A stretch of 38,356 nt of DNA. Source: Peptoniphilaceae bacterium (GTDB taxonomy: Bacteria; Bacillota; Clostridia; Tissierellales; Peptoniphilaceae). The stretch lies in assembly GCA_028723425.1 (NCBI GenBank), contig JAQYEZ010000024.1, forward strand, positions 1 through 38,356. Direction: 5' to 3'. This document shows, piece after piece, positions 16,496 through 37,671 of this stretch (within the stretch, counting starts at the first letter, position 1; the number at the start of each line of letters is the position of its first letter). The translations under genes were made by a program, and so were the position numbers. The notes under the pieces were generated by a model that made no database searches, was not told where the DNA came from, and saw only the letters and a list, made by a program, of their open reading frames with translations.

Positions 16496-16504
16496 GAGTT
16501 TTTT

Positions 16505-16711: not shown

Positions 16712-17787
16712 TGTGGATTCAAAATTTAAAAGTAAATAATTTTAGAAATTATTTTTATGAAAATATAGATTTTAATGAGGATATAAATATTTTTTTGGGA
16801 GATAATGCCCAAGGCAAAACAAATCTTTTGGAAGCAGTTTACTATCTTTCCAATGCCAGATCTTTTAAAACTGTAAGGGATAGGGACATAATCATGTTTA
16901 AGGAAAATTCCATGAAACTTGAAGGAAAGATTAGAAAGAAAAATTCCTTTAAAAATGTTTCTATAAAAGTAAATGATAAGGATAAGGATATTTATGTTAA
17001 TGACATAAAATATTCTAAAAATAAGGATTTGAAGGCTCTTTTTAAGCTAGTCCTTTTTACTCCAGAAGATTTAAGTATAATTAAAGAAGGTCCAAATTTT
17101 AGAAGAGAACTTTTTGATGATATAATAGTAAGTGTTGATTATTCTTATAGTATTATAAAAAAGAATTTTGAAAAAATACTTTTCCAAAGAAATAAATTAC
17201 TAAAGAATCAAAAATCTAAATATTTTAAAGAGCAACTTGCTGCCTTTGACAGACAAATTATCAAATTAGCTTATACAATTTACCAAAGAAGAGAAAAGTT
17301 TGTAAAACTAATAAATGGTTTTGCCAAGTCCTACCACCAAAGTCTTAGTAACAATAAAGAAGACTTAGAAATTACTTATAAGCCTGATATATTTGCTCAA
17401 AGTTTTGACCAATATGAAGAAGAATTTAAAAAAAATATAGCCAATGATTTGAAACTAATGACCACAACATCTGGTGTTAATAGAGATGATATAGACATAA
17501 AAATAAATGGCAAAGCAGTCAAAAAATTTGCCTCTCAAGGACAGCAAAGATCGGTTATCTTAAATATAAAACTTGCTCAAGTTAAGTTAATTAAAGAATC
17601 ATCATCAGATAAGGCAATTATTTTATTTGATGATGTTTTTTCGGAGCTTGATGAAAATAGAAGTCAATTTCTATTAAATAATTTAGGAGCTTATCAAACA
17701 ATAATAACAGCAACAAATATAAAATCGCTAGAAAATGTAGACAAATCCAAGGTTAGAAAAATATCCGATGGACACATTTTAAGCTAG
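16711..17787 (+). CDS. recF: DNA replication and repair protein RecF
   Basis: An SMC-like ATPase of 358 residues that helps load RecA at single-strand gaps. Walker A GDNAQGKTNLLEAVYYLS is at residues 30-47. FASQGQQRSVILNIKLAQ is the ABC-like signature near residue 275, and AIILFDDVFSELDENR is Walker B. It is translationally coupled to yaaA and lies 11 bases before gyrB. Confidence 0.97.
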   Translation: MWIQNLKVNNFRNYFYENIDFNEDINIFLGDNAQGKTNLLEAVYYLSNARSFKTVRDRDIIMFKENSMKLEGKIRKKNSFKNVSIKVNDKDKDIYVNDIKYSKNKDLKALFKLVLFTPEDLSIIKEGPNFRRELFDDIIVSVDYSYSIIKKNFEKILFQRNKLLKNQKSKYFKEQLAAFDRQIIKLAYTIYQRREKFVKLINGFAKSYHQSLSNNKEDLEITYKPDIFAQSFDQYEEEFKKNIANDLKLMTTTSGVNRDDIDIKINGKAVKKFASQGQQRSVILNIKLAQVKLIKESSSDKAIILFDDVFSELDENRSQFLLNNLGAYQTIITATNIKSLENVDKSKVRKISDGHILS

Positions 17788-17798
17788 AAAGGAAGTTT

Positions 17799-19703
17799 AT
17801 GACTAAATCCAACTACGATGCATCCAACATAAGAGTCCTAAAAGGACTAGAGCCTGTTAGACTTAGACCTGGTATGTATATAGGTTCAACAAGTGAAAGA
17901 GGTCTTCACCATTTGGTCTATGAAGTTGTGGACAACTCTATAGATGAGGCCTTGGCTGGTCGTTGTGACTATATAAAAGTTACAATTGACAAAGATAATG
18001 TAGTAAAAGTAGAAGATGATGGATCAGGAATTCCTGTAGAAGTCCATCCAGTTACAAAAAAATCAACCTTAGAAACTGTACTTACAGTTCTTCATGCAGG
18101 TGGAAAATTTGACGATAAGGCTTATAAGTTTTCTGGAGGACTCCATGGAGTAGGTGTAAGTGTTGTTAATGCCTTGTCAGAATACTTGATAGCAGAAGTC
18201 AAAAGAGATGGAAAAATCAATAGAATGACCTTTAAAAGAGGTATACCACAAACTGACTTACAAGTTATTGGAGAAACTGACCAAACAGGTACAACTATAA
18301 CTTTTAAACCTGATGGAGAAATTTTTGATACAACAGTTTTTGATAAAATAACTTTGGAAAACAGATTCAGAGAAATGGCCTTTTTGAACAAGGGAGTTAA
18401 AATAATATTTGAAGACCAAAGGGTAGATTCTATTCAAACTTTTAAGTATGATGGTGGAATTTCTGAATTTGTAAAATACTTAAATAGAAATAAAAATCCT
18501 TTAAGTCCTACAATAGCTCACTTTGAAGGAGTACAAGAAAAAACAGAAGTAGAAATAGCCTTCCAATATACAGATTCTTATTCTGAATCAATCTTAACTT
18601 TTGCCAATAATATTTTCACTATAGAAGGTGGTACCCACTTATCAGGTTTTAGAACAGCCCTAACCCGTACTATCAATGATTATGCAAGAAAGTACAACAT
18701 AATAAAAGAAAATGAAGAAAACTTTTCTGGAGAAGATGTAAGAGAAGGAATGACAGCTGTTGTTTCTGTAAAGATATCTGAGCCGCAATTTGAAGGACAA
18801 ACAAAGGGAAAATTAGGAAATTCTGAAGTTAGAGGAGCAGTTGATGCCTTCTTCTCAGAGCACTTAGAATATTTTTTAGAAGAAAATCCACAAATTGCAA
18901 AGGCTATAGTCTCAAAGGCTGCTGCCTCAAGAAGAGCTAGACAAGCAGCAAGAAAAGCCAGAGATTTAACAAGAAAAAGATCTATCTTAGATTCTGCCAC
19001 ACTTCCTGGCAAACTTGCAGATTGCCAATCTACAGATATAAGTGAAAATGAAATTTTTATAGTCGAAGGTAATTCAGCCGGCGGTTCAGCCAAAGGTGGA
19101 AGAGATAATAGGATTCAAGCTATCCTTCCCCTAAGAGGAAAAATTTTAAATGTAGAAAAGGCAAAACTTGATAAGATTTTAAATTCGGAAGAAATAAAAA
19201 ATATGATTACAGCTTTCGGAACTGGTATTGGAGAAGAATTTGATATATCTAAATTAAGGTATGGAAAAATTATTATTATGACCGATGCCGATGTAGATGG
19301 AGCTCACATTAGAACCTTGCTTTTAACTTTCTTTTATAGATATATGAAGCCTTTAATAGACGAAGGCCATGTATTTGTAGCCCAACCACCCCTTTATAAA
19401 CTAAAAATTGGTAACAAAGAAAGATATTGTTATGACGATAAAGAACTTAACGATATTATAAATGAGGTTGGAGAAGGAAATTACAAGCTAGAAAATAGAT
19501 ACAAGGGACTTGGTGAAATGAACGCTGACCAACTTTGGGAAACAACAATGAATCCTGACAATAGGGTTTTGTTAAAAGTTTACGAAGATAGCGAATCTAC
19601 GACAACAGATGATACTTTCTCAATGCTTATGGGAGAAAAAGTAGAACCAAGAAGAGAATTTATCCAAGACAATGCAAAATATGTTGAGAACTTGGATATT
19701 TAG
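17799..19703 (+). CDS. gyrB: DNA gyrase subunit B
   Basis: The ATPase subunit of gyrase, 634 residues. The GHKL ATP site includes [20 protein letters not shown] and the lid [15 protein letters not shown]. The transducer domain follows. The TOPRIM domain has [18 protein letters not shown] and [18 protein letters not shown]. The C-terminus has [18 protein letters not shown], a gyrase-type hallmark. An AAGGAAG site precedes the ATG and gyrA begins 8 bases after the stop. Confidence 0.98.
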
Positions 19704-19711
19704 GGGGAAAA

Positions 19712-22159
19712 ATGACAGAAGAATATAAACAAAATATTCTAGAAGTTGAACTTGAAAAGCAAATGAAAAAAGCATACCTTGACTATTCTATGTCAGTAAT
19801 AGTTGCAAGAGCGCTTCCAGATGTAAGAGATGGCCTAAAGCCAGTACATAGAAGAATTCTTTATGGTATGGAAGGTCTTGGACTAGATCCATCCAAAGGA
19901 ACAAGAAAGTCTGCCAGAGTTGTTGGGGAGGTTATGGGTAAATTTCACCCTCATGGGGACTCAGCTATCTATGATGCTATAGTTAGACTTGCCCAAGATT
20001 TTTCAACTAGGTATCCTTTGGTTCAAGGTCAAGGTAACTTTGGTTCAATAGATGGGGATGACCCAGCAGCTATGCGTTATACCGAAGTTAAAATGAGCAA
20101 GATTGCCAAAGAAATGCTTAGAGATATCAACAAAGAAACAGTAGATTTTGGACCAAACTTTGATAATTCGGAAAAAGAACCCTTGGTTTTGCCATCAAGA
20201 TTTCCAAATCTAATAGTAAATGGTTCAAACGGAATAGCAGTAGGTATGGCAACCAATATGGCTCCCCATAATCTAGGGGAAACTATAGACGCCTGCATAG
20301 CCTATATGAAAAATAATGACATCACAATAAAGGAACTTTCAGAGATAATCAAAGGACCTGATTTTCCGACAGGAGCTTTAATTCTTGGAAAAAGCGGTAT
20401 AAAAGATGCCTACCAAACAGGAAGAGGAAAGATAAAACAAAGGGCTGTTGCTACTATTGAACCCTTTAAGAAAAATAGGGAAAGAATAATAGTTACAGAA
20501 ATTCCTTACCAAGTAAATAAGGCAAGATTAATAGAAAAAATTGCCGAATTAGTTAAGGATAAAAAAATAGATGGAATTTCTGATATTAGGGATGAATCAG
20601 ACCGTAAAGGAATGAGAATTGTAATAGAAGTAAAAAGAGATTTTAGCGCTAATATAGTTTTAAACAAACTATACAAGCACACCCAATTAGAAAATACCTT
20701 TGGGATAATAAATCTAGCCTTGGTAAATGGTGTACCAAAAATTTTAAACCTAAAAGAATTAATTGAATATTATATAGACCATCAAGTAGATGTAGTAACA
20801 AGAAGGACAGTATTTGATTTAGATAAGACTAAAAAGAGAAAACACATTGTAGAAGGCTTGATAATTGCTATAAATAATATAGACGAAGTTATTAGAATTA
20901 TCAGATCTTCCTATGATGATAATCAAATCAAAAAAGAATTCTACCAAAGATTTGCCTTAACAGATGAGCAAACCCAAGCTATACTTGATATGAGATTAAG
21001 AAGATTATCAGGTTTAGAAATAGAGAAATTAATGGCTGAAGATAAGGAATTGGAAGAAAAAATTGCCTATTTATCAGCAATACTTGCCTCCAAAGAAAAA
21101 TTGATGGAAGTAATAATAGATGAATTAACAGAAATAAAAGAAAAATACCAAGATGAAAGAAGAACAAAGATAGTAGCAGATGTAGGAGAATTTGAGATAG
21201 AAGAGCTAATAGAAAAAGAAGATGTGCTTATTACTCTAACCTACGATGGCTATATTAAAAGGCTTCCTATAGATACTTATAAGGTGCAAAATCGTGGTGG
21301 CAAGGGCATAAATGCAGGATCTACAAAAGAAAATGATTATATCAAAAAAATTATGACCACCAACACCCACGAAGACCTTTTATTCTTTACTTCCTTAGGA
21401 AAAGTTTATGAATTAAAAGCCTACGAAATTCCAGAAGGGACAAGGACATCAAGGGGTCAAGCTATAATAAACTTATTAAGGCTAGAAAATGGAGAAAGAA
21501 TAACAGAAATAATAGCTCTATCTGACTTAAATGAAAATAGCCAAATTATCCTTCAAACTCAAGGAGGCCTAATAAAAAAGACAGATGCAAAAAATTTCAC
21601 TTCCATTCAAAAAAATGGAATAATAGCCATAGGTCTAAATAAGGGTGACAAGCTTATTTCAGTTAGACAATTAAATGAACCAAAAGATATAATAGTAGCT
21701 ACTAGTCAAGGCATGGCTATAAAATTCTCATCAAAAGATGTAAGAAGTATGGGCAGACAAGCTCAAGGAGTTAAAGCTATAAAACTTAATGATGATGACA
21801 GGGTAGTTTCTATGAATATAGTGGAAAATGAAACCTACCTTGTTGTAGTAACAGAAAATGGCTATGGAAAGAAAACATCATTTAACAATTTCAAAAATCA
21901 AAATCGTGGTGGCAAAGGCTTAAAATGCCACAAGGTAACTGAAAAAACTGGACTTATAGTGGACAGCCTTCCTGCAGATTTAGAAGATGATATAATGATG
22001 GTATCCCTAAAGGGGGATATGATTAGAATTTCATCTAGGGATATATCCACAATGGGAAGAAGTACAGTTGGAGTAAAACTTAAAAATTTGGCCAACGAAA
22101 ACGACAAAATTGTTTCTGTAACCAAATATGAAGAATCAAGGCAAGAAGATGAGGGATAG
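19712..22159 (+). CDS. gyrA: DNA gyrase subunit A
   Basis: The breakage-rejoining subunit, 815 residues. The catalytic tyrosine is Tyr123 in [15 protein letters not shown]. The quinolone-determining region reads [19 protein letters not shown] with Ser84 and Asp88, the wild-type residues usually linked to fluoroquinolone susceptibility. The C-terminal beta-pinwheel carries a GyrA-box variant QNRGGKG twice, in [11 protein letters not shown] near residue 527 and [11 protein letters not shown] near residue 730. Only one is usual. The short acidic end (SRQEDEG) is typical. The stop is 2 bases before the next gene. Confidence 0.98.
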
Positions 22160-22161
22160 GT

Positions 22162-22470
22162 ATGTTTGATAAAAAAATCACAAGGACAGATGACTTACTA
22201 ACAGTAGAACTAAAAGGCGATTTGGATGTGTATTTTGAAAAAGAGTTCAAAGAATTTGCAAAAGAGAATCTTTTAAATGAAGATATAGATATGGTTTTTG
22301 ATTTTAAATATCTAAACTATATAGATTCTACTGGACTTGGACTTTTTATGAACCTTTATAAAAACCAAAAAGAAAAAAATAAGTCCATCAAGATTATTAA
22401 TGCAAAGGATAATATCTACAAACTATTTAAAATCACAGATTTGACAGAACTTTTCAATATGGAGAAATAA
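22162..22470 (+). CDS. Anti-sigma factor antagonist (RsbV/SpoIIAA-type STAS protein)
   Basis: A 102-residue single STAS domain. It frees a sigma factor by binding the anti-sigma protein when unphosphorylated. VELKGDLDVYFEKEF opens the fold and YLNYIDSTGLGLFMNLY contains the phosphorylation serine, Ser56 by my count, the same position as in RsbV. It lies 2 bases behind gyrA, and a GAGGGA-type site inside the gyrA end serves as its ribosome binding site. It overlaps the next gene (TAATG). The three genes form an rsbV-rsbW-sigB type set. Confidence 0.88.
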   Translation: MFDKKITRTDDLLTVELKGDLDVYFEKEFKEFAKENLLNEDIDMVFDFKYLNYIDSTGLGLFMNLYKNQKEKNKSIKIINAKDNIYKLFKITDLTELFNMEK

Positions 22471-22817
22471 TGGATAAAATAGAAATAAGAGTACCAGCAA
22501 AAGAAAACTATTTAAAATCACTTAGACTTTTATCAGCCTCTATAGCTAGTGATATGGGCTTTGATATAGAAGCTGTTGAAGATATAAGAGTGGTTGTATC
22601 TGAAGCTGTTAATTATAAATTAGGTCAAGAATACGTAGATATAAAATTTTATGTCAAAGAAGATTCTCTAACAGTTTTAGTCTTAGGAAAAGATAAAAAA
22701 ATTGACAAACAAGCTTTGGAAATGAGAAACCTAATACTAGAAGTTTTGGCAGATGAAGCATATGTTTCAGAAGATGAGATTAGACTGGTAAAGAGAGTAA
22801 AAAATGACAAACAATAA
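22470..22817 (+). CDS. RsbW-like anti-sigma factor with degenerate ATP-binding site
   Basis: A 115-residue protein that aligns with RsbW from its first residues (IEIRVPAKENYLKSLRLLSASIASDMGF) to EDIRVVVSEAV. Downstream the kinase features are missing. The N-box asparagine spacing is altered (SEAVNYKLG). The D-x-G box is replaced by VLVLGKDKKID. The glycine-rich G2 box (GGLGL in RsbW) is absent from MRNLILEVLADEAY. It is also about 40 residues shorter than Bacillus RsbW. It probably still binds the sigma factor encoded next to it, but I doubt it phosphorylates the STAS protein. The 14-base overlap with the sigma gene supports a functional pair. Confidence 0.75.
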   Translation: MDKIEIRVPAKENYLKSLRLLSASIASDMGFDIEAVEDIRVVVSEAVNYKLGQEYVDIKFYVKEDSLTVLVLGKDKKIDKQALEMRNLILEVLADEAYVSEDEIRLVKRVKNDKQ

Positions 22818-23565
22818 ACTTTCTAAAGAAGAAACAAAGAAAAAATTCGAAGAATTCTATAAGACTAAAGATAAAAAACTAAGAGATGAGCTTATAGAAG
22901 ACCATCTTTATATAGTTGATATTTTGACTAATAAATATGTAGGCAAGGGAATAGAAAGAGATGATCTATACCAAGTAGCCTCTCTTGGCCTTATCTATGC
23001 CATAGATAGATATGACCCTAGCAAGGGTTTTGAATTTTCATCATTTGCGACTCCAACTATCATGGGAGAGATAAAAAGATACTTTAGAGATAAGGGCTGG
23101 GTTATAAGAGTTCCAAGGAGAATCCAAAATCTCTATAAAAAAATAAACTCAGCAAAAAAAATACTCCCACAGGAAATTCAAAGGATTCCAACAGTCAAAG
23201 ACCTAGCAGACTATTTGGGAGAAGATGAAGAAATGATCCTTGAAGCCATGGAAGCAAGCAAAGTTTACTCTCCCCAAAGTCTAGATATGAAATACCAAGT
23301 CCAAAAGGGAGAATCATCTGTAGACTTATCTGATATGATAGGAGAAGATGACAAAAATTTCGACTCAGTTGAACTAAGAGATTTAATAGAAAAATCTACC
23401 AAAAGGTTAAATGATATGGAAAAGCAAATCTTAAAACTTCGCTACTATGAAGGAAGAACTCAAGTAGAGATAGCAGACAAACTCTCCATAAGTCAAATGA
23501 CTGTATCAAGACTAGAAAAGAAAATTTTGCAAAAATTCACCCAAGAATTAGAAAAACAAAGTTAA
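22804..23565 (+). CDS. SigB/SigF/SigG-family RNA polymerase sigma factor
   Basis: A 253-residue sigma-70 family factor lacking region 1, as in the SigB/F/G group. Region 2 has DDLYQVASLGLIYAIDRYDPSKG and FSSFATPTIMGEIKRYFRDKGW, the strongest group signature, followed by RVPRRIQ. Region 3 follows (PTVKDLADYLGEDEE). Region 4 has LRYYEGRTQVEIADKLSISQMTVSRLEKKIL, a helix-turn-helix for the -35 box. Since no sporulation genes are seen, a stress-type regulon is more likely than a sporulation role; this is inference. It probably shares the gyrase transcript and a terminator follows at 23612. Confidence 0.92.
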   Translation: MTNNKLSKEETKKKFEEFYKTKDKKLRDELIEDHLYIVDILTNKYVGKGIERDDLYQVASLGLIYAIDRYDPSKGFEFSSFATPTIMGEIKRYFRDKGWVIRVPRRIQNLYKKINSAKKILPQEIQRIPTVKDLADYLGEDEEMILEAMEASKVYSPQSLDMKYQVQKGESSVDLSDMIGEDDKNFDSVELRDLIEKSTKRLNDMEKQILKLRYYEGRTQVEIADKLSISQMTVSRLEKKILQKFTQELEKQS

Positions 23566-24737: not shown

Positions 24738-24781
24738 AGAAGTGATCTTTAAAAATGAATATGATTAAAGTGAGGTTAAAC

Positions 24782-26572
24782 ATGAAAAAAATTCCCAAAA
24801 TAACAGTTTTAGCATCGACTGTTCTTTTATCCACTATATTTTCACCAAAAGCCCATGCCGCTAGTGAAGATATATACTACTATAAGTCAAACAACAATAC
24901 AGAAAAAATACAAGCAAGTGACACTTCAAAAGTATATACTTATAAGCTTAGCGAAGATAAACCACAAGCTAGTAAAGAAGAAAGTTTGGAAAATATAGCA
25001 AACGATTCTAACAAAGAAGTAGAAAATGAAGATTCTACAGACCTTAAGAAGGATACAGATTTAAATGATAAGTCTGTTCCTGTAAATAAAGCAAAGTCTA
25101 TTTCAGTTACTCCTCAAAAAGTTCAAGTAAAAACCTATAGCAATACAACCAATACAAAAAGTACAACAAGTAAAGAATCAACAAAAGCTAGTGATTCTTC
25201 TAATAAGAGCAATACTCAAACAAATTCATCATCTTTTTCTTATAGTGATGTTTATAAGTATACATCTATAGATTTGGATAATGGCCTAATAGGGAATACT
25301 TCTACTACAAGTAATTCAAATAAAAGTTCAAATACTTCTACCAATAATAGTCAAAAACAAGAAGAACTAAAAGTAGTAGATAAGACTTCTGATGGTAGAT
25401 ATGTCCTAAAATCTGATGGAGTTAATTCATACTACTATGACAATGGCGTTTTGCAAAAAAATAAGGATACAGTCTTAAATGGCAAATTCTATAGCCTAGA
25501 TTCCCAAGGAAAGGCAAATGTAGCCAAAAACAAATGGGTCAATGTTAATGGAGTAAAATATTATGCCAACCAAAACGGCTATACACAAGTAGGCCTAAAA
25601 AAGATTGGAAATACTACCTATAACTTTGAACAAAATGGCAAACTATCTGCAAATAAAACAATTTTTGCCAATGGAACTTACTATAAGATTAATAACCTTG
25701 GCATAGCCTCTGCTATTAGAAACCAATGGCTAGATTATAATGGTTCAACTTTCTATGTAAACAACAAAGGTGGAAAAGCAAGTGGCTTAACTGAAATTTC
25801 AGGCAAAACTTATTATTTTAACAATTCAGGTATGGTCAAAAACCTTCCCCTTCTTTATACAGGAGATAGGTTCTACAGCGTAGATAGCAAGGGAGTTGTT
25901 AGCCTAAAAAGAAATACTTGGGTAAATTACAAGGGCATAGATTACTACGCTAACAATGAAGGTTGGCGCTGTCAAGGAATTACAAATATAAATGGAAAAG
26001 TTTATAATCTAACCAAAAGTGGACCTGGCAAAAATTACTATGCTTATAGCGAAAAAGATAATGCAACCTATTACTTTGATAGCAATGGAGTAGGCACTCT
26101 AGTTTCTACTGGAAAGCCAAAAAAAGATTTAAATCTATTGGTAGGTTGGATGTATGATGGCATGAACAATAACATGACTTACAGCATGTCAGCTGCCCGT
26201 ACATCTGCCAATGCATCTGACTGTTCATCTGCCGTATTTAGGGCTATGATATATGCAGGCTTTAGGGATAAAGGTTCATTTATAGGAAACACAGAAACGC
26301 TCTTTAGCCTAGGAAGTAAAGGTCAGGTCCTAAAAGAAATTTCAGAAGATGAGATTGACTATGGAGATATATTTGTAGCTGGAGTTCCAGGACAAAGTCT
26401 TGGAGCAGGAGGTCATACAGGTATTATCTTAGATAAAAATACAATTATCCATTCAAACTACACCGACAATGGCATCAGCGTAACTCAAAGAAAAGGAAGA
26501 ATGGGAGATGCCAGTGGGTATCCGATAAGATATTATAGATTAGTTGGTGGATCAAGAAGATTATACATTTAA
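24782..26572 (+). CDS. Secreted cell-wall hydrolase: wall-binding repeats plus Amidase_5 domain
   Basis: A 596-residue exported peptidoglycan hydrolase. A signal peptide ends at about AHA-AS. A Ser/Thr/Asn-rich, probably disordered region runs to about residue 195. About ten choline/glucan-binding-type repeats of about 20 residues follow, such as NKWVNVNGVKYYANQNGYTQ and GKTYYFNNSG. The C-terminal domain from about residue 455 resembles Amidase_5, the catalytic part of pneumococcal phage Dp-1 Pal. It keeps Cys481 (DCSSAV), His545 (GGHTGI) and an HSNY motif at 557-560, giving an NlpC/P60-type active site. The start at 24782 follows GAGGT at good spacing; an upstream ATG at 24755 would add nine residues before the signal peptide. 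No holin or phage genes are adjacent, so a host wall-remodelling or bacteriocin-like role is likely. Confidence 0.85.
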   Translation: MKKIPKITVLASTVLLSTIFSPKAHAASEDIYYYKSNNNTEKIQASDTSKVYTYKLSEDKPQASKEESLENIANDSNKEVENEDSTDLKKDTDLNDKSVPVNKAKSISVTPQKVQVKTYSNTTNTKSTTSKESTKASDSSNKSNTQTNSSSFSYSDVYKYTSIDLDNGLIGNTSTTSNSNKSSNTSTNNSQKQEELKVVDKTSDGRYVLKSDGVNSYYYDNGVLQKNKDTVLNGKFYSLDSQGKANVAKNKWVNVNGVKYYANQNGYTQVGLKKIGNTTYNFEQNGKLSANKTIFANGTYYKINNLGIASAIRNQWLDYNGSTFYVNNKGGKASGLTEISGKTYYFNNSGMVKNLPLLYTGDRFYSVDSKGVVSLKRNTWVNYKGIDYYANNEGWRCQGITNINGKVYNLTKSGPGKNYYAYSEKDNATYYFDSNGVGTLVSTGKPKKDLNLLVGWMYDGMNNNMTYSMSAARTSANASDCSSAVFRAMIYAGFRDKGSFIGNTETLFSLGSKGQVLKEISEDEIDYGDIFVAGVPGQSLGAGGHTGIILDKNTIIHSNYTDNGISVTQRKGRMGDASGYPIRYYRLVGGSRRLYI

Positions 26573-26823: not shown

Positions 26824-28962
26824 ATGAAAGTAAATAAACTGATCTCCTCTGTAATGGCTCTAGGCCTTGTATTTTCAATTGCTGGATGTGGTGGCAAAAA
26901 ATCCAACACTCCAAGTACAGAAGGTTCCATGCCAGCTAGTAACGGAGGATCGCAAGCAACAGAGAGTCAATCAGCAGATAAATTTGAATCGCAAACTTCA
27001 GATGATACTCTAGTAATTGGTACAACAGAAATGAATGGAGACTTCATCGAAGGCTTCACTAATAGTGCCTATGATATAAAGGTTAGAAACCTTATGGGTA
27101 TCCAAGGATCTGTTGGCTATAGGACTTATCAACAAAATGAAGAAGGGGAGTTTGTCTGGAATAGTGCAGTCTTAGCAGAAGAACCAAAAACTGTAGAAAA
27201 CAAAGATGGTTCAAAAACTACTACCTTCAAATTAAAAGATGACTTAAAATGGTCAGACGGCAAGCCAGTAACAGCTGATGATTATTTATGGAAATCCCTA
27301 ATGACATCAAATGGTGACTACAACCTAGTAACAGGATCAATAGAAATTGGTAACTATTCATTAAAAGGTTACGAAGATTATCGTGCTGGCAAAAATGAAG
27401 TCTTTGAAGGTATAAAGAAGATTGACGATCATACCTTTGAAGCTACAATAGATTCATCTTTCTTACCATATTATGAAGAAGAATCCCTAAAGATGTTTGA
27501 TCCAAGACCAATGCATCTTGAAGCACCAAATTTAGTAATCGATGTTAATAAAGTAGCAGTAAAACCTGACTATAAACTAACAGACGATGAAAAGAAAGCC
27601 TATATTGATTCAATCGACCAACAAATAGAAAATGAAAATAAAGATTTTGAAGCCAACAAAAAAGAAGCTGGTGGCAAGGTTGATGATGAAACTCAAAAGA
27701 AACACGATGAAAAGCTAGCAGGTCTTGAAGAAAGAAAGAAACAAGCAGAATCAGGTCAAGGACTAGATCCTACTAAACTTATATTTGAACAAGCTATGCT
27801 ATATGATACAGGAACATATAGAAAGAACCCAAGCGTAACACCTGGACCATATAAATTCGTAGAATTTAAAAACAATATGGTAAAACTTGAGAAAAATGAT
27901 AACTACGCTGGAGACTTCAAGGGTAGAAAACCATCTATACCAAAGATAATAGTCCAAGCAGTTAACCAAAAAATATCTATAGATCTTCTTGCAAATGGCG
28001 ATATCGATATTTGGGAAGAAGAAATGGAAGGTGCCAAAGTTGACCAAATGATAGCAGATGCTAAAGATGGAAAAATTGGTGGTTACCTAAACTATGACAG
28101 AAACGGTTATGGTAAACTAGTATTTTTAAATGATAGAGGAGCAACCAAGTACAAAGAAGTTAGACGTGCAGTAGCCTACCTAATGGACAGAAATGACTTC
28201 GTACAAAACTTTGCTGGTGGTTACGGTGTAGTAACAAACGGTATGTACGGATCAAGTCAATGGATGTATAAAGAAAGAGGAGCAGATCTAGAAAGTAAGC
28301 TTACCAACTATACTTTAAACGTTGATCAAGCGAATAAAGAATTAGATAATTCTCCATACAAATTCGAATCTGATGGAAAAACTGCTTGGGATCAAGAAAA
28401 AGCTCAAAAAGCCTACCAAGACAACCCAGAAAACTTCGATTATTGGAGATATGATAAGGATGGCAAGAAACTTCAAGTTAACCAATATGGTGCTCAAGAC
28501 TCTGGTATAACAACCCTACTAAATAACCAACTTCCAGACAATGCAAAACAAGCAGGTATGGAATATAACGTTCAAGCAGGAAACTTTACTACCTTACTTG
28601 ATTACTTATACTATCCAAAAGAAGATGCTGAATATACAGCCTTCAACATGGGATCAAACTTTGAAGTACCTTATGACCCTTACTTCCAATTTAACTCAGA
28701 AGGTAACGACAATACAGACAGAGTTAACGATCCTGAAGCTGATAAGCTAACAGTAGAATTAAGAAGCGTAGAACCAGGAAACAAAGAAGAATACTTAGAC
28801 AAGTGGGAAGCATTCAATATTTGGTTTAACGAAAATTTACCAGAAATTCCACTTTATGCTAACAAATACTACACAGGTTATTCAAAGAGAGTTAAGGGAT
28901 TTGATACAGCAACTCCATTCTGGGATGCAACCTATGAAATCAATAATATGAAACTAAAATAA
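26824..28962 (+). CDS. oppA: Oligopeptide ABC transporter substrate-binding lipoprotein, copy 1
   Basis: A 712-residue SBP_bac_5 family lipoprotein that captures peptides outside the membrane. The lipobox is IAGC with Cys22, followed by a Ser/Gly-rich linker. The SBP_bac_5 core is recognisable in LKDDLKWSDGKPVTADDYLW and VRRAVAYLMDRNDFVQNFAGG. Residues 250-315 form a Lys/Glu-rich predicted coiled coil not found in standard OppA, which is about 540 residues. The second copy at 29489 has exactly the same length and is very similar. The gene has its own promoter and a GGAGAGAG ribosome binding site. Substrate specificity cannot be read from the sequence. Confidence 0.93.
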   Translation: MKVNKLISSVMALGLVFSIAGCGGKKSNTPSTEGSMPASNGGSQATESQSADKFESQTSDDTLVIGTTEMNGDFIEGFTNSAYDIKVRNLMGIQGSVGYRTYQQNEEGEFVWNSAVLAEEPKTVENKDGSKTTTFKLKDDLKWSDGKPVTADDYLWKSLMTSNGDYNLVTGSIEIGNYSLKGYEDYRAGKNEVFEGIKKIDDHTFEATIDSSFLPYYEEESLKMFDPRPMHLEAPNLVIDVNKVAVKPDYKLTDDEKKAYIDSIDQQIENENKDFEANKKEAGGKVDDETQKKHDEKLAGLEERKKQAESGQGLDPTKLIFEQAMLYDTGTYRKNPSVTPGPYKFVEFKNNMVKLEKNDNYAGDFKGRKPSIPKIIVQAVNQKISIDLLANGDIDIWEEEMEGAKVDQMIADAKDGKIGGYLNYDRNGYGKLVFLNDRGATKYKEVRRAVAYLMDRNDFVQNFAGGYGVVTNGMYGSSQWMYKERGADLESKLTNYTLNVDQANKELDNSPYKFESDGKTAWDQEKAQKAYQDNPENFDYWRYDKDGKKLQVNQYGAQDSGITTLLNNQLPDNAKQAGMEYNVQAGNFTTLLDYLYYPKEDAEYTAFNMGSNFEVPYDPYFQFNSEGNDNTDRVNDPEADKLTVELRSVEPGNKEEYLDKWEAFNIWFNENLPEIPLYANKYYTGYSKRVKGFDTATPFWDATYEINNMKLK

Positions 28963-29488: not shown

Positions 29489-31627
29489 ATGAAAGTAAAA
29501 AGAATTTTCTCGTCTGTAATGGCCCTAGGTTTAGTGGTGACTCTTGCAGCATGCGGTGGAAAGGATTCCAATAAGGGATCTGCTACTGGATCAGCTAGTA
29601 CAGAAGGATCGCAAACAGGAGCAGACGCTACAAGTGTCGATAAATTCGAATCTGTTACATCAGATGACACCCTTGTTATAGGTGTAAGCTCAATTGGTGG
29701 AGATTTTATTCAAGGTTTTGCAAACTCTACTAACGATGTAAAAATTAGACAACTTATGGGTATCCAAGGTAATACAGGTTATGGAACCTATGTTCAAGAT
29801 GAACAAGGCGCTTGGGTTTGGAATAAAGCAGTACTTGCAGAAGAACCAAAAACAAAAGATAATGAAGACGGTTCAAAAACAGTTACCTATAAACTTAAAG
29901 AAGGTTTAAAATGGTCTGATGGCAAACCTGTAACATCAGATGATTACATCTGGAAAACACTTATGTTGTCAAGTCCAAGTTATAGTCTAGTTACTGGCTC
30001 AACAGAAATAGGTGCAGACTCTGCCAAAGGCTATGAAGCCTATCACAGTGGAAAAACAGATGCTCTAGAAGGAATCAAAAAAATCGATGATTTAACCTTT
30101 GAAGCTGTAATTGATGCATCTTTCTTACCATACTATGAAGAAGAATCTCTAAAAGCATTTGATTTAAGACCTATGCACTTAGAAGCACCAAATCTAATCA
30201 TAGATGTTAACAAGGTAGCAGTAAATCCAGACTACAAATTAACAGATGAAGATAAAAAAGCTTACACAGATTCTATTGATCAACAAATTGCCAAAGAAAA
30301 TGAAGATTTTGATGCAATGAAAAAAGAAGCAGAAGATGGCAAAGTTGATGAACAAGATCAAAAAGCACACGATGATAAAATAGCAGGCCTTGAAGATAGA
30401 AAGAAAAAAGCTGAATCAGGAGAGGGAATTGACCCAACTCAACTTCTATTTGAACAAGCTATGCTATTTGATACAGAAACCTACAGAAAGAATCCATCAG
30501 TTACTGCTGGATCATATAAGTTTGTAGAATTTAAGAACAACATGGTTAAACTTGAAAAAGATGATAACTATGTTGGAGACTTCAAAGGCAAAAAACCTTC
30601 AATTCCTAAGGTAATAGTTCAAGTAGTTAACCCAAAAATTTCAATCGATCTATTAGAAAATGGCGATATTGATGTTTGGCAAGAAGAAACTGAAGGAGCT
30701 AAAATTGACCAAATGAGAAAAGCAGCTGATGATGGAAAAATCGGTGGTTATTTGACCTTTGATAGAAATGGTTATGGTAACCTAGTATTCCTTAACGATA
30801 GATCAGCAACTCAATATGCAGAAGTTAGACGTGCAGTAGCCTACCTAATGGACAGAAATGACTTTGTACAAAACTTTGCCAGTGGATATGGTGTAGTAAC
30901 AAATGGTATGTATGGTACTAGCCAATGGATGTATAAGGAAAGAGGAGCAGATCTTGAAGCAAAACTTACAAATTATACCCTAAACATTGACCAAGCAAAC
31001 ACAGAATTAGACAATTCACCATACAAATTTGAATCTGATGGAAAAACTCCATGGGATAAAGAAAAAGCTCAAAAAGAATATCAATCAAACGCAGCAGGAT
31101 TTGATTATTGGAGATACGACGAAAAAGGTAAAAAATTACAAATTAACCAATATGGTGCTCAAGACTCTGGTATTACAACCTTGTTAAACAACCAACTTCC
31201 AGACAATGCAAAACAAGCAGGTATGGAGTATAACGTTCAAGCAGGAGATTTCAATACCTTACTCCAATACCTAACCTTCCCTAAAGAAGATGCTGAATAT
31301 ACAGCTTTCAACATGGGAACCAACTTTGGTACACCATTTGACCCATACTACCAATACAACTCTAAAGGATTTAACAATAAAGACAAGGTTAATGATCCTG
31401 AAGCTGATAAAATTACTGAAGAGTTAAGAAGAACAAAACCTGGTGATAAAGAAAAATATCTAGATAAATGGGAAGAATTTGAAGTTTGGTTTAACAAGAA
31501 CCTACCAGAAATTCCACTATATTCTAACCAATACAATACAGGTTATTCAAAAAGAGTTGAAGGTTTCGAAACAGCTACTCCATATTGGGATGTAACTTAC
31601 GAAATCAATAACATGAAACTTAAATAA
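29489..31627 (+). CDS. oppA: Oligopeptide ABC transporter substrate-binding lipoprotein, copy 2
   Basis: A 712-residue paralogue of the preceding oppA, similar along its full length. The lipobox is LAAC with Cys22. The core motifs VRRAVAYLMDRNDFVQNFAS and INQYGAQDSGITTLLNNQLP are nearly unchanged between copies. The coiled-coil insertion lies at about residues 250-315 (DEDKKAYTDSIDQQIAKENE onward) and is conserved but more divergent than the core. Tandem duplication with separate promoters suggests differential expression or different peptide preference. AAAGGAGAG precedes the ATG and a terminator follows, so it is uncoupled from oppB. Confidence 0.93.
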   Translation: MKVKRIFSSVMALGLVVTLAACGGKDSNKGSATGSASTEGSQTGADATSVDKFESVTSDDTLVIGVSSIGGDFIQGFANSTNDVKIRQLMGIQGNTGYGTYVQDEQGAWVWNKAVLAEEPKTKDNEDGSKTVTYKLKEGLKWSDGKPVTSDDYIWKTLMLSSPSYSLVTGSTEIGADSAKGYEAYHSGKTDALEGIKKIDDLTFEAVIDASFLPYYEEESLKAFDLRPMHLEAPNLIIDVNKVAVNPDYKLTDEDKKAYTDSIDQQIAKENEDFDAMKKEAEDGKVDEQDQKAHDDKIAGLEDRKKKAESGEGIDPTQLLFEQAMLFDTETYRKNPSVTAGSYKFVEFKNNMVKLEKDDNYVGDFKGKKPSIPKVIVQVVNPKISIDLLENGDIDVWQEETEGAKIDQMRKAADDGKIGGYLTFDRNGYGNLVFLNDRSATQYAEVRRAVAYLMDRNDFVQNFASGYGVVTNGMYGTSQWMYKERGADLEAKLTNYTLNIDQANTELDNSPYKFESDGKTPWDKEKAQKEYQSNAAGFDYWRYDEKGKKLQINQYGAQDSGITTLLNNQLPDNAKQAGMEYNVQAGDFNTLLQYLTFPKEDAEYTAFNMGTNFGTPFDPYYQYNSKGFNNKDKVNDPEADKITEELRRTKPGDKEKYLDKWEEFEVWFNKNLPEIPLYSNQYNTGYSKRVEGFETATPYWDVTYEINNMKLK

Positions 31628-32152: not shown

Positions 32153-33115
32153 ATGTTACGATACATAGGAAAAAGAATCATTAACTTGATTCCTGTAGCA
32201 CTTATTATATCTGTTTTGATATTTGTATTATCAAAAGCAATGCCTGGAGATCCTATTAGAGCTATGATACCTCAAGATGGTAGAATGACTAAAGCTCAAC
32301 AAGAAGAGCTATATAAGACTCTTGAACATAGGTATGGTTATGACAGGTCATTGCCTGAACAATACGTACTTTGGATGGGTAGGACCTTAAAAGGAGATTT
32401 TGGAGAATCTACTCAAGCAAGAGAGCCAGTTAAAAAATACTTGGCTGAGCCTTTAAGAAATACTATTTATTTAAACTTAGGCTCAACTATTATTTCATTT
32501 GTCCTATCTATACTTATAGGAATTAGGTCGGCGGTTCATAGGGGAGGCTTTTTTGATAGATTCTTCCAAGTCTTTACTTTGATAGGAATTTCACTACCTA
32601 CATTCTTTATAGGCTTATTCTTAATTTTCTTATTTGCCTTTAGATTAAAATGGTTCCCAGCCAATGGTATGCCTAGGGGTAATTCTTTTGGTGAGTGGGT
32701 CAGGTACTTGGTATTACCAACCTTGACTTTGACTTTTGGATCTATGGCATCTATATCAAGATATGTAAGAAATGCCATGCTTGATTCTTTGGACCAAGAC
32801 TACATTAGAACTGCTAGGGCAAAGGGTCTAAGGGAGAAAACTGTTATATATTCACATGCTTTTAGGAATGCTCTTATACCAGTAGTTACAGCTATGACAT
32901 GGGCTATACTTGGTATGTTTTCAGGTTCTGCAATTACAGAAACCATCTTTGCTTATAGAGGTATAGGAAACCTCCTTATCAAGGGTGTTTTGGCCCAAGA
33001 CTACAATGTTATCTTGGCTCTATCAATGTTTTATGCTATTTTAACCTTGTTAGGTAACTTGTTGATGGATATTGCTTATGCCCTAGTAGATCCAAGAGTA
33101 AAATTGGAGGCTTAG
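32153..33115 (+). CDS. oppB: Oligopeptide ABC transporter permease OppB
   Basis: A 320-residue inner-membrane permease of normal family length with six predicted membrane helices. The first helix is near residues 10-30 (IPVALIISVLIFVLSKAMPGDP). The EAA cytoplasmic loop that docks the ATPases is YIRTARAKGLREKTVIYSHAFRNALIPV, and the C-terminus ends DIAYALVDPRVKLEA. A GGAAGGGAG ribosome binding site precedes the ATG. The stop is one base before oppC. Unlike its partner OppC it has no extra domain. Confidence 0.95.
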   Translation: MLRYIGKRIINLIPVALIISVLIFVLSKAMPGDPIRAMIPQDGRMTKAQQEELYKTLEHRYGYDRSLPEQYVLWMGRTLKGDFGESTQAREPVKKYLAEPLRNTIYLNLGSTIISFVLSILIGIRSAVHRGGFFDRFFQVFTLIGISLPTFFIGLFLIFLFAFRLKWFPANGMPRGNSFGEWVRYLVLPTLTLTFGSMASISRYVRNAMLDSLDQDYIRTARAKGLREKTVIYSHAFRNALIPVVTAMTWAILGMFSGSAITETIFAYRGIGNLLIKGVLAQDYNVILALSMFYAILTLLGNLLMDIAYALVDPRVKLEA

Positions 33116-33116: not shown

Positions 33117-35030
33117 ATGAAAAAAGAACTAAAAAGATCTTTAAAGTCTTTTGGTAATTTGCTCTTATCCTTATTTAGCTTTGGTACTAGATCAGAAGAT
33201 ATTAATTTTGATCCAAAGCAAAAACCAGAAGATTTAAACCAAGAACCATTAGAAAATGACAAATTAAGAGAAGAAGCAATTATGTCACCAGGAAAGATTG
33301 CCGTAAGAAACTATTTCCATAATCCGCTTGGAGTTATAGGTTTGGTTTTGTTCTTAGCTATAATTGGAGTTGTCTTTATTGGTTCAGCTCTTATACCTTT
33401 TAACCCTTATAAGTCAGAAGGAACCCTTATAAATGTATCTCCTGGTGCAGGTTATATGAAATTTCCTTCCGAACTTGAAAGTGAGAAAGTAAAGGAAGTT
33501 TCTATAGGTAATACTTTTGGTGTTGGCCTATCTAAAAAAGGAAACTTATATTATTGGGGCAAAAATAACGAAGACGATGTCTTAAAAATGCCAAAAGCAA
33601 TCGAGAAAAAACTTAAGGGAAAGAAAATTTCCCATGTAGCAGCTGGAGATAAGCATATTATCGTCTCTACTAGTGATAATGAAGTTTATGGCTGGGGTAA
33701 TGATTCCTTTAAGCAATCTGAAATGCCACCAATGGCAGAAAGTCAAATAAAACAAGAAGGTATAAAAAAGCTTGGTGGTGGTGTTCAATATTCTGTTGTT
33801 TTAACAGAAAAAAATAATATTATAGTTTGGGGTTCTACTATGAACTCAAGATTAGATCTTATTCCTTCAGAAATCCAAGGCAAGATTGTTGATTTTTCTA
33901 CAACAGGTATAAACATACTTGCACTTTTGGATGATGGATCAATTAGATTATTGGGTGTTAGAGGGGCAGAAGTTGACAAAAAAATGCCTAAAGAATTAAC
34001 AGATGGAACAGAGAAGGTCGAAAAAATAGCCCTTTCTACAAAGTCTGGCGCTGCAATAACAAAAGATGGCAAACTTTATGTTTGGGGTCCATCTAGTGAT
34101 AACTTGTCAGGAGATAAGATTCCAAAATTAAAGGGAAAACCAGTAGACATCCAAGGTGGATCTAGTCACTTCACTGTTTTAGATGATAAGGGAAATATTT
34201 ATTCTTGGGGTAATAATGGCTATGGAGAAACTGATGCTCCAAAAGATGGAAAATTCACACAAATCTATGCTAATTACTTCAACAATTATGCCGTAAAAGA
34301 AGATGGCAAGATAGTGACCTGGGGACTTGATGGTTTTATCTTTGGTTCTGATGACCAAGGCCGTGATATTTTCACAAGACTTATCCATGGTGGTAAGATG
34401 ACCATGATAATTTCCTTTGTATCTGTAGTTATCCAAGTAGTACTTGGTGTCCTTATAGGTATGGTTTCAGGTTATGCTGGAGGAAAAATAGATAATATCT
34501 TGATGAGATTTACAGAAATTGTATCCTCATTCCCATTCTATCCACTTATCATAACCCTTTCTGCACTCTTGCCAGTAAATGTAAGCCAAAATACTAGACT
34601 TATGATGATAATGATACTTTTAGGTATCATAGGCTGGACAGGTATAGCAAGGCTAGTTCGTGGACAAATCCTTGCCGAAAGAGAAAGGGATTATATAACA
34701 GCGGCTAAAGCCTTAGGAGTTACAAATAGTTCTATCTTAGTAAGACATATTTTACCAAATATTCTTTCAATAGTTATAGTAAATGCTACCTTAGGCTATG
34801 CTGGAAACTTACTAACAGAAGCTGGTCTATCATTCCTTGGATTTGGTGTACAAGAACCTATGCCATCTTGGGGTAATATGATGACCTCAGCCCAAACATC
34901 AGATGTAATTAACATCTTCTGGTGGAGATGGATTGTACCTGCCTTAGCAGTATTCTTATCAGCATTCTCAGTAAACCTTGTAGGTGATGCTTTAAGAGAT
35001 GCTATAGACCCAAGAGCAAATGAAAGATAG
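33117..35030 (+). CDS. oppC: OppC-type permease with an inserted seven-repeat RCC1-like propeller
   Basis: A 637-residue permease, about twice the usual 300. The N-terminal cytoplasmic part and first membrane helix (about 70-93) are normal. In standard OppC the loop after helix 1 leads within some 30 residues to a GTDxxGRD motif. Here that motif (FGSDDQGRDIFTRLIHGG) only appears at residue 409. The segment between, about 124-407, consists of seven RCC1-like repeats, six ending in W-G (Trp147, 193, 238, 323, 364 and 402) and the fourth in L-G (279-280). A typical unit is YGWGNDS after an A-G-D-x-H-core. Five further helices and the EAA loop YITAAKALGVTNSSILVRHILPN follow. The propeller should lie outside the membrane, near OppA. 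The reading frame is uninterrupted and codon use matches its neighbours. Confidence 0.93.
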   Translation: MKKELKRSLKSFGNLLLSLFSFGTRSEDINFDPKQKPEDLNQEPLENDKLREEAIMSPGKIAVRNYFHNPLGVIGLVLFLAIIGVVFIGSALIPFNPYKSEGTLINVSPGAGYMKFPSELESEKVKEVSIGNTFGVGLSKKGNLYYWGKNNEDDVLKMPKAIEKKLKGKKISHVAAGDKHIIVSTSDNEVYGWGNDSFKQSEMPPMAESQIKQEGIKKLGGGVQYSVVLTEKNNIIVWGSTMNSRLDLIPSEIQGKIVDFSTTGINILALLDDGSIRLLGVRGAEVDKKMPKELTDGTEKVEKIALSTKSGAAITKDGKLYVWGPSSDNLSGDKIPKLKGKPVDIQGGSSHFTVLDDKGNIYSWGNNGYGETDAPKDGKFTQIYANYFNNYAVKEDGKIVTWGLDGFIFGSDDQGRDIFTRLIHGGKMTMIISFVSVVIQVVLGVLIGMVSGYAGGKIDNILMRFTEIVSSFPFYPLIITLSALLPVNVSQNTRLMMIMILLGIIGWTGIARLVRGQILAERERDYITAAKALGVTNSSILVRHILPNILSIVIVNATLGYAGNLLTEAGLSFLGFGVQEPMPSWGNMMTSAQTSDVINIFWWRWIVPALAVFLSAFSVNLVGDALRDAIDPRANER

Positions 35031-35039: not shown

Positions 35040-36047
35040 ATGGCATTATTAGAAATAAATAATCTTCATACTTATTTTTCTACTAAAAAAGGGCTCATCA
35101 AAGCTGTAAACGGCGTTTCATGTTCTATAGATGAAGGAAAAACGCTGGGCTTAGTAGGAGAATCAGGTTCAGGAAAGAGTCAAACTGCAATGAGTATCTT
35201 GCAACTTTTTGAGCCTAATCAAAAAATATACGAAGGAGAGATTTACTTTGATGGTAAAAAAATCTCAGAATTCTCCAGGGATAAAATGGAAAAAATCAGA
35301 GGTAATGATATATCAATGATTTTCCAAGAGCCTATGAGCTCACTAAATCCTGTATTTACAGTAGAAAAACAAATAGGCGAAGTTTTGAGGCTTCACAAAG
35401 GTATGAACAAAAAACAAGCAGCAGCAAGATGTGAGGAACTTTTGGCCCAAGTTAAAATTCCTAATCCACAGGTAGTTGCCAAGCAATATCCATTTGAGCT
35501 TTCAGGTGGTATGAACCAAAGGGTTATGATAGCCATGGCCCTTGCTTGTGAACCAAAGCTATTAATAGCAGATGAACCAACAACAGCCTTAGATGTTACA
35601 ATCCAAGCGCAAATTCTAAGATTGATGAATGAATTAAAGGAAAAAAACAACACATCTATTCTATTTATCACACACGACTTGGGAGTAATTAACCAAATGG
35701 CAGATGAAGTTGCTGTAATGTATTGTGGACAAATAGTAGAACAATCACCAGTTGACTATATTTTCAAAAATGAAATCACTGACTACAACCATCCATATAC
35801 AGTAGCACTCTTAAATTCTATCCCTTCAATAACAAGTGATAGAAATGAAAGACTTGATATAATACCAGGCTCCGTGCCCCATCCACTTAACCTTCCTAAG
35901 GGTTGTAAATTTGTAGACAGATGTAAATATGCAACAGATAAGTGTAGACAAGAGATGCCAGAATTAGTTCAAGTAACAGAAAAGCAAAGAATCAGATGTC
36001 ATTATCCAAACAGAAGGGAGAGAGAAGATGGAAGCTACCAAGAATAA
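35040..36047 (+). CDS. oppD: Oligopeptide ABC transporter ATPase OppD
   Basis: A 335-residue ABC ATPase of normal length. Walker A is GESGSGKSQT (near residue 40), the Q-loop MIFQEPMSSLNP, the signature LSGGMNQRVMIAMAL, Walker B LLIADEPTTALD and the switch histidine THDLG. The C-terminal oligopeptide/dipeptide domain has the cysteine pattern C-x5-C-x6-C plus a later C (GCKFVDRCKYATDKC, RCHYP), a site reported to hold an iron-sulfur cluster in some relatives. It overlaps oppF by 20 bases. Confidence 0.95.
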   Translation: MALLEINNLHTYFSTKKGLIKAVNGVSCSIDEGKTLGLVGESGSGKSQTAMSILQLFEPNQKIYEGEIYFDGKKISEFSRDKMEKIRGNDISMIFQEPMSSLNPVFTVEKQIGEVLRLHKGMNKKQAAARCEELLAQVKIPNPQVVAKQYPFELSGGMNQRVMIAMALACEPKLLIADEPTTALDVTIQAQILRLMNELKEKNNTSILFITHDLGVINQMADEVAVMYCGQIVEQSPVDYIFKNEITDYNHPYTVALLNSIPSITSDRNERLDIIPGSVPHPLNLPKGCKFVDRCKYATDKCRQEMPELVQVTEKQRIRCHYPNRREREDGSYQE

Positions 36048-37671
36048 AAAAGTCCTATTCAAAGTAAGAAATCTCAAAAAATACTTCCCTGTAAAAAAGA
36101 AGTCAATATTCTCTAGAGAAACTAACCAATACGTTCACGCCAACGAGTCCATATCCCTTGATATCTATCAAGGAGAAACTCTAGGACTTGTAGGAGAATC
36201 AGGTTGCGGTAAATCAACCTTTGGAAGAACACTTCTACAAATATATGAACAAACAGAAGGCACAACTCTTTATTACGGAACAACCTTAGAAGAGATGGCT
36301 CCAGCTTATATGGGAAAAGATATAAATGACATACCTAAAAAATTCCCTAACTATAACAAAGAAAGCGAAGAACTTCAACAAATCTACCAAGAATTAGATG
36401 ATCCAAATATAGATGATGTAAAAAGAGCTCATCTAAACGAAAAGGCCATGTTTAAAAGAAGAGAAATCCAAGCTGAATATGAAAATATGCTTAGAATAGC
36501 TGGAGGACTACTATCTTATGACAACCTTGAAGAAGTGAAAAATGTCCTTGCTGACTACTACAAATCTCTAAAAGAAAGAGCAAAAATACAATTTGAACTT
36601 AACAAAATGAGAGATAGACAAATAGCAAGGATCGAAGGCAAAAAAGAGCTAGCAAATTCTTTAGAAAATGATCCAAAATACAAAGACTTAGTGGCAAAAA
36701 AATCTGAGCTTAACCAAATAATAGAAGAAAAAGTTGCAAAAATTGACCAACTTAGATCAAAAGTAAAAGATGATGACCTATATGATGAATATGAAGCGTT
36801 TAGGGATAATGGCATAGACATATCAAGACTTGATAACGAAGAAATGAGAGAATTAAGACGAGAACTCCAAATGATCTTCCAAGACCCATACGGTTCGCTT
36901 GATACAAAGATGACTGTTGGTAACATAATCGGAGAAGGAGTTTTGGGTCATGATATCTTCAAATCAAGAAAAGATCCTGGCTATAACGAATACATTCAAA
37001 AAGTTATGGAACAATGTGGACTTGCTCCATACTTTCTTCACAGATATCCTCACCAATTCTCTGGTGGACAAAGACAAAGAATAGGCATAGCAAGAGCCCT
37101 TGCCCTAAAACCATCATTTATAGTTTGCGATGAGGCTGTATCAGCCCTAGATGTATCTATCCAATCACAAATTATTAACTTGCTTCAAGACCTAAAAGTT
37201 GAAAATAACCTTACCTATTTATTTATTACTCACGACCTTTCAGTAGTAAAATATATATCTGATAGAATAGGGGTAATGTATTTGGGAGTGATGGTAGAAC
37301 TTTCAGAATCAGAAAGAATCTTTGACAATCCATTCCACCCTTACACCCAAGCTTTACTCCAAGCCATACCAAGAACTGATGTGGATAAGGGTCAAGAGTT
37401 ACAAATAATAGATGGAGATATACCTTCAGCCGTAAGACCACCAAAAGGATGTAGATTCCACACTAGATGTAAGTATTGTATGGAAATCTGCACAAAATAT
37501 GAGCCAGAACTAAAAGAACTAGAAGAAGGTCATTTTGTATCCTGCCACTTGATGGATGTTTCTGCAGAAGAAAAAGAAAAAGCCTACCAAAAGAACTTGG
37601 AAGCTAAGAAAGAACAAGAAAAGAAATTAGAAAAAATAATAGAAGAAAAAGAAAAAGAGGCTAAACTATAA
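36028..37671 (+). CDS. oppF: OppF-type ABC transporter ATPase with a large helical insertion
   Basis: A 547-residue ATPase where the family norm is about 310-330. Walker A GESGCGKST is at residues 56-64. The Q-loop MIFQDPYGSLDTKMTVG only comes at about residue 282. Normal OppF has some 45 residues between them. The extra residues, about 85-260, are rich in Lys, Glu and Leu with heptad-like stretches (KAMFKRREIQAEYENMLR, KSELNQIIEEKVAKIDQLRS) and should form helices or coiled coils. The signature FSGGQRQRIGIARALAL, Walker B FIVCDEAVSALD and switch THDLS are intact, so it should be active. The C-terminus has the cysteine motif and ends in a further Lys/Glu helix. The start has GGGAGAGAG at good spacing. 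Confidence 0.93.
   Translation: MEATKNKKVLFKVRNLKKYFPVKKKSIFSRETNQYVHANESISLDIYQGETLGLVGESGCGKSTFGRTLLQIYEQTEGTTLYYGTTLEEMAPAYMGKDINDIPKKFPNYNKESEELQQIYQELDDPNIDDVKRAHLNEKAMFKRREIQAEYENMLRIAGGLLSYDNLEEVKNVLADYYKSLKERAKIQFELNKMRDRQIARIEGKKELANSLENDPKYKDLVAKKSELNQIIEEKVAKIDQLRSKVKDDDLYDEYEAFRDNGIDISRLDNEEMRELRRELQMIFQDPYGSLDTKMTVGNIIGEGVLGHDIFKSRKDPGYNEYIQKVMEQCGLAPYFLHRYPHQFSGGQRQRIGIARALALKPSFIVCDEAVSALDVSIQSQIINLLQDLKVENNLTYLFITHDLSVVKYISDRIGVMYLGVMVELSESERIFDNPFHPYTQALLQAIPRTDVDKGQELQIIDGDIPSAVRPPKGCRFHTRCKYCMEICTKYEPELKELEEGHFVSCHLMDVSAEEKEKAYQKNLEAKKEQEKKLEKIIEEKEKEAKL

Follow-up and report, generated by a model that had tools for sequence, protein, structure and literature searches.

A predicted seven-bladed RCC1/BLIP-II-type ring in the OppC permease of an Opp-family operon: a candidate extra grip for OppA

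In the current view, importers of the Opp fold use small loops, e.g. the scoop of DppB, to contact their binding protein. The stretch of DNA analysed here (the window, 38,356 nucleotides of contig JAQYEZ010000024.1 from a Peptoniphilaceae bacterium) holds an Opp operon whose OppC permease carries a large inserted domain, and this raises the question of what the domain is, how widely it is shared and what it might bind. A complete seven-bladed ring of the RCC1/BLIP-II type in the segment between membrane helices TM1 and TM2 of OppC is a well supported architecture. From the architecture a function is here inferred; that the operon represents a distinct and so far undescribed subtype of Opp, in which the ring gives an additional hold on OppA, appears to have about an even chance of being right.

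The OppC gene and its predicted ring

OppC is encoded by a single, unbroken open reading frame (Table 1) and has the features of a C-type permease: OppC_N at residues 57-100 and BPD_transp_1 at residues 444-634 (Pfam), the GxDxxGRD motif and the EAA loop. The best NCBIfam model, Opp4C, matches from residue 407 with 302 bits, under its cut-off of 350, and the protein is therefore classed as an OppC-type permease and not as an Opp4C equivalog. Between the two permease domains the RCC1_2 family (PF13540) is found over five stretches with 108 bits, the cut-off being 22 (E=1e-31), i.e. the tandem RCC1 repeats of an RCC1/BLIP-II propeller; PF00415 scores 20.4, below its 21.7, and PF25390 scores 126.5, below its 150. 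Phmmer comparison with the PDB matches residues 406-633 to E. coli OppC (E 9e-51) and the insert to HERC2, UVR8, BLIP-II and others.

Seven tandem repeats, six ending in W-G and one in L-G, had been read from the sequence in an earlier note, and this is borne out: the W of the six W-G ends is at residues 147, 193, 238, 323, 364 and 402, and L-G is at residue 279. The length of 30-47 residues given for the repeats has to be replaced by a measured spacing of 38-46, although the repeats themselves stand, and the figure of about 284 intervening residues is correct for the repeat stretch alone, the distance from the end of TM1 (residue ~92 in the model) to GSDDQGRD (residue 410) being about 317. 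Aligned without gaps, the seven 28-residue blade ends have a mean identity of 6.9/28 versus 2.0 in 2000 shuffles, none of which was as high, about two of the 6.9 identities being built in by the placing of the blades in W-G register. The end residue of blade 3 is W in 29/48 relatives and F in 18/48, and the G of the L-G of blade 4 is kept in 46/48. Since no DNA-level tandem repeat is reported within the insert and the identity between blades is low, recent amplification or duplication of blades is ruled out.

Structure prediction of OppC alone with AF2, from a 17-row alignment of the window protein, eight Anaerococcus proteins and eight insert-free OppC, gave a model with mean pLDDT 72.5 and pTM 0.51. 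It contains 21 strands of at least three residues in seven groups of three between TM1 and TM2, which agrees with the ring that the earlier note had proposed for this position. Most ring blocks have pLDDT 80-90 with weaker turns. On the basis of the pTM and of a linker (residues 97-113) with pLDDT below 50, the modelled angle of the ring to the membrane part is uncertain. In a Foldseek search with the model E. coli OppC is the top match, with an rmsd of 1.7 over 228 columns; by target length the ring fits BLIP-II best (TM 0.81 and 0.80), followed by the ectodomain of ACR4 (0.75) and by UVR8 (about 0.6). Closure of the seven-bladed ring is thus a prediction from the AF2 strands and the fit to BLIP-II. 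Hydropathy gives the order TM1, ring, and core helices with the EAA loop, and together with the established topology of such permeases it supports the earlier proposal of an extracellular position; the ring is probably on the outer side of the membrane.

The ring is less conserved (0.49) than either its entry linker (0.56) or its exit linker (0.70), and a second measure gives 0.50 for the ring versus 0.65 for the OppC core. The latter values would suit a passive spacer or an inherited accretion with no specific partner, and propellers have neighbouring ends that are easily carried in a loop. However, the full set of seven repeats and the linkers persist even where sequence identity in the insert has fallen to 28-35%, and no loss of blades was found among the 80 ring-bearing lineages measured (4-6 W-G/W-S motifs each); a ring with no partner therefore seems very unlikely. 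Loop conservation was also searched for an invariant ligand face, and the means for the AB-loops and BC-loops overlap. One ring-OppC (L094) has roughly 70 additional residues of acidic, low-complexity sequence within the ring, where they separate blade 2 from blade 3.

Table 1. Features of the Opp operon in the window
Feature	Positions	Strand	Basis
OppA1, 712 aa, lipoprotein-like start by eye	26824..28962	+	Pfam
OppA2, 712 aa, 76% identical to OppA1	29489..31627	+	Pfam
Predicted helical hairpin in OppA2, aa 253-310	30245..30418	+	structure model, local pLDDT about 80
OppB	32153..33115	+	Pfam
OppC permease, 637 aa, with RCC1/BLIP-II-type propeller insert	33117..35030	+	ORF, Pfam, NCBIfam, AF2, Foldseek
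TM helix 1, aa 70-92	33324..33392	+	AF2 helix 70-92; hydropathy 71-89
Entry linker, aa 97-117, low model confidence at 97-113	33405..33467	+	AF2, alignment conservation
Seven-bladed ring, aa 118-403	33468..34325	+	Pfam, AF2, Foldseek
Blade 1, W-G end	33489..33560	+	AF2 strands 125-130, 134-139, 144-150
Blade 2, W-G end	33627..33698	+	AF2 strands 171-176, 180-185, 190-194
Blade 3, W-G end	33762..33833	+	AF2 strands 216-221, 225-230, 235-239
Blade 4, L-G end	33885..33956	+	AF2 strands 257-263, 266-271, 276-279
Blade 5, W-G end	34017..34088	+	AF2 strands 301-306, 311-315, 320-323
Blade 6, W-G end	34140..34211	+	AF2 strands 342-347, 351-356, 361-365
Blade 7, W-G end, six residues ahead of GSDDQGRD	34254..34325	+	AF2 strands 380-385, 390-394, 399-402
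OppC core, aa 407-633, with EAA loop	34335..35015	+	Opp4C 302 bits; PDB 8z21_B match
GSDDQGRD motif, from aa 410	34344..34367	+	GxDxxGRD in OppC core
OppD ATPase, ordinary size	35040..36047	+	Pfam, NCBIfam
OppF ATPase, 547 aa	36028..37671	+	Pfam, NCBIfam
Insert of OppF from Walker A to Q-loop region, aa 84-262	36277..36813	+	alignment, insert profile

Distribution, descent and the OppF insert

Ring-bearing OppC occurs in 31/31 genomes of the window's genus, 63/249 of its order, 17/391 sampled from the class (at E 1e-80) and 14/398 sampled from the phylum (by a ring-region profile); these samples overlap, and the counts are lower bounds because only some candidates were scored within each genome. 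Two of the class matches (G463 and G262) were at first partial and were then confirmed as full-length, and in the phylum sample one ring-OppC (G917) is interrupted by a contig end. Scores in the latter sample separate ring-OppC (367-539 bits) from RCC1-only proteins (at most 139). A scan of named genomes for close relatives gave eight Anaerococcus records with 73-76% identity and nine core-only matches, eight from Pseudomonadota and one from Chloroflexota. The expected conservation in several species is accordingly seen, as is the lengthening relative to normal OppC: 372-466 residues precede GxDxxGRD in 80/80 ring-bearing relatives versus 73-140 in 28/28 insert-free ones. A sequencing or assembly chimera of two genes, which would have undone the earlier reading, is ruled out because independent genomes of many species share the design.

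A maximum-likelihood tree of the OppC core from 109 rows (81 with and 28 without the ring) places 81/81 ring-bearing rows on one side of one branch with support 99/98 (99% of 200 bootstrap trees), the tree being unrooted (midpoint only) and the insert-free rows having been picked by similarity. Multiple origins of the ring are unsupported by this single branch in the midpoint-rooted tree. Rows dropped as duplicates or short pieces were L001-L003, L021-L028, L050 and L111-L114; a 578-residue open reading frame lacking the ring (L019) and long RCC1 proteins (L126-L128) were excluded from both tree and counts. Both main subclades contain members of the window's own family, a pattern that points to transfer or old paralogy. 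One genome (G187) has two ring systems in tandem (L071, L072).

In ring systems OppF, too, is enlarged, a feature absent from the earlier note: Walker A is followed by about 175 additional residues, charged and helix-like by eye. For this insert the best PDB match has E 0.077 and no Pfam match is above cut-off. The spacing from Walker A to the Q-loop is 184-226 residues in 52/54 OppF rows of ring systems versus 38-44 in 23/25 rows lacking the ring, the two rows left on each side being those in which both motifs were not found. With a profile of the insert only, 62/63 ring genomes of the order score at least 100 bits and no other genome of the order does so, and in the phylum sample the insert is present in 13/14 ring genomes with one exception on each side; weak matches of 20-25 bits were excluded from the counts. 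The insert search took 248 genomes of the order versus 249 in the ring search, and G200, whose contig has 3494 bases, may be missing from the former. G223 has an OppF fragment at a contig end that scores 51 bits, and in G958 the contig ends in OppD, with no insert found elsewhere in that genome. A Fisher p-value for the co-occurrence is disregarded because the genomes are related, and simple descent from a single ancestral operon may account for the pattern.

The almost one-to-one occurrence of ring and OppF insert speaks for the reading that the two form one two-sided device, in which the ring would sense OppA or an outside ligand and the insert would relay this to the ATPase or a cytosolic partner. 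Among the sampled genomes no complete operon clearly has the ring but lacks the OppF insert, and in the accessible part of the E. coli Dpp description the equivalent subunits, DppC and DppF, pair (PMC12136057). Against this reading, G800 keeps OppD and an insert-bearing OppF (L129, 4218-6756) with no ring match at E 1e-25, and with no A, B or C genes within the 9444 bases fetched; the insert matched no family in the PDB and Pfam searches; and the divergence of ring and insert is only modestly correlated (0.10-0.36). Such a device is unlikely, and the same grade is given to its stronger form, a transporter-receptor whose outer ring and inner insert were gained together to read OppA or a ligand and so control the ATPase cycle or a cytosolic partner. 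If true, it would set these importers apart as a class that is regulated in a way of its own.

Candidate partners of the ring and its possible function

Genes for a substrate-binding protein, a second permease and two ATPases lie around OppC, all on the + strand. Systems in which all five genes are present, ring-bearing or not, usually have them in the order A-B-C-D-F. An exception is the B-C-A order of L054, a second ring-OppC copy in G013, which has OppB and OppA homologues nearby and no OppF homologue in the stretch fetched. The substrate of the window's transporter is presumably oligopeptide, going by family membership. Since the ring system is one of two transporters of the Opp family found in the window's genome, it probably serves as a main path for the uptake of peptides. 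An FeS-type cysteine motif terminates the window's OppD and OppF, as in OppC/DppC-type systems; for OppF it is present in 49/76 rows from ring loci, 23 of the 76 being pieces of <200 residues cut by the locus end, and in 25/25 rows lacking the ring. Other genes nearby are dnaA, dnaN, a recF-like gene, gyrB and gyrA (13734-22159), which lie a few kb from the Opp operon and are the usual neighbourhood of a chromosome origin, and a sigma factor with regions 2, 3 and 4 preceded by two small overlapping open reading frames (22162-23565), which may be a partner-switching sigma operon. Directly upstream of the Opp operon, 24755-26572 encodes a probable wall hydrolase, which combines an Amidase_5 domain and glucan/choline-binding-like repeats.

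Changes specific to ring systems are also found in the presumed partners of OppC. OppB has four extra residues (53-56, positions 32309-32320) in its TM1-TM2 region, and alignment shows several short extra segments in OppA, the lengths of which overlap between systems with the ring (598-866) and those without (555-635). The OppA model is poor overall (mean pLDDT 52.8), the local hairpin of Table 1 excepted.

Correlated divergence was calculated in ten variants from 31 of the 81 ring rows, i.e. those with all five genes complete and <80% identity. Pairs expected to be in physical contact gave partial r of 0.56-0.62 (OppB with the OppC core) and 0.37-0.45 (OppD with the OppF core). OppA and the ring gave 0.40-0.47 across the ten variants in these 31 systems, comparable to OppD-OppF, with 0/500 permutations as high and jackknife values of 0.31-0.47 in the two variants tried. 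Divergence of the ring does not track that of its own OppC core (-0.06 to 0.09). The signal is higher for the middle lobe of OppA (0.45-0.47) than for the first (0.27-0.28), with lobe borders that we take to follow those of E. coli OppA. The OppF insert, which is cytosolic, gave 0.22-0.29 with OppA. Fast evolution of both OppA and the ring could inflate their correlation. In a 19-row clade the OppA-ring signal is strong (0.57 and 0.48), but in the window's own clade of 12 rows it is outside the six highest pairs and the ring instead tracks OppB (0.38 and 0.62); for this reason the grip on OppA is held at about an even chance.

The published account of E. coli DppABCDF, in its accessible part, provides a parallel: the TM1-TM2 scoop of DppB enters the cleft of DppA, which caps both DppB and DppC, and DppA is not retained on the E. 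coli complex, whereas mycobacterial binding proteins stay bound (PMC12136057). By analogy with the scoop, the ring would be the corresponding site on the partner permease, near the docking site of OppA. It would stand outside the membrane beside the translocation mouth on its short conserved linkers, as a second grip for lipoprotein OppA adjoining the OppB scoop, and might keep OppA docked or orient it for the passage of released peptides into the pore. The ring would then be on the same half of the transporter as the enlarged OppF, the insert of which, on the expected OppC side, could tune ATP hydrolysis to OppA docking. Docking of OppA is the sole function suggested in the earlier note to have gained support, which is indirect and incomplete; gating of the peptide path and binding of a host or wall ligand are, like it, conjectural.

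Binding of a target other than OppA, e.g. a wall polymer, a host or neighbour protein or a peptidase, could place the importer at sites of peptide release. RCC1/BLIP-II rings often bind proteins, and the closest solved fit by target length, BLIP-II, is a secreted protein inhibitor; that the ring is more variable than its mount and that an Amidase_5 gene with binding-type repeats adjoins the operon are further points in favor of such a ligand. A host-specific ligand is argued against by the presence of the ring throughout the genus and in many other lineages. Overall a ligand of this kind is a possible but doubtful explanation, and the grip on OppA is preferred.

Sharing of the ring by many related bacteria, together with the added OppF segment, marks a distinct peptide importer. 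Its signature is RCC1 repeats between OppC_N and BPD_transp_1 and an OppF spacing from Walker A to Q-loop of >180. If the preferred reading is true, the ~290-residue permease ring and the ATPase insert that matches it would control binding-protein docking in a new way, with relevance to how anaerobes of the human flora, e.g. Anaerococcus, take up peptides.

Comparison with known transporters and propellers

The earlier note knew of no described ABC importer with this design, and open-access literature, searched by titles and the starts of abstracts, yielded no description of an RCC1 ring in a permease. The accessible part of a propeller survey (PMC9218822) names the RCC1/BLIP-II group, and the words transporter and permease are absent from that part. 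As far as these searches reach, the ring-bearing Opp subtype is undescribed.

In its permease core, EAA loop and A-B-C-D-F operon the window's system is like E. coli OppBCDF (8z21), DppABCDF (8z1v-8z1z) and the NCBIfam Opp4C model. It differs in its TM1-TM2 segment, which is short in those permeases and here accommodates the ring with its roughly 290 residues, and in the insert of OppF. The DppB scoop, according to the accessible part of its description, resembles the ring in belonging to the TM1-TM2 region of a permease, the partner of the ring-bearing one, and in contacting the binding protein (PMC12136057). However, the scoop is about 30 residues and is in DppB; the window's OppB keeps this region with its four added residues, and OppC adds the ring.

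Among propellers, BLIP-II (1jtd, 3qi0), UVR8, HERC2 and RCC1 have a seven-bladed RCC1-type propeller like the window's ring. BLIP-II is a free secreted inhibitor, whereas the window's ring is built into a membrane permease, and no beta-lactamase binding is implied by the likeness. The ectodomain of CRINKLY4/ACR4 (7a0j) is likewise an extracellular RCC1-like ring on a membrane protein, but of a plant receptor kinase, whereas the window protein is a transporter subunit.
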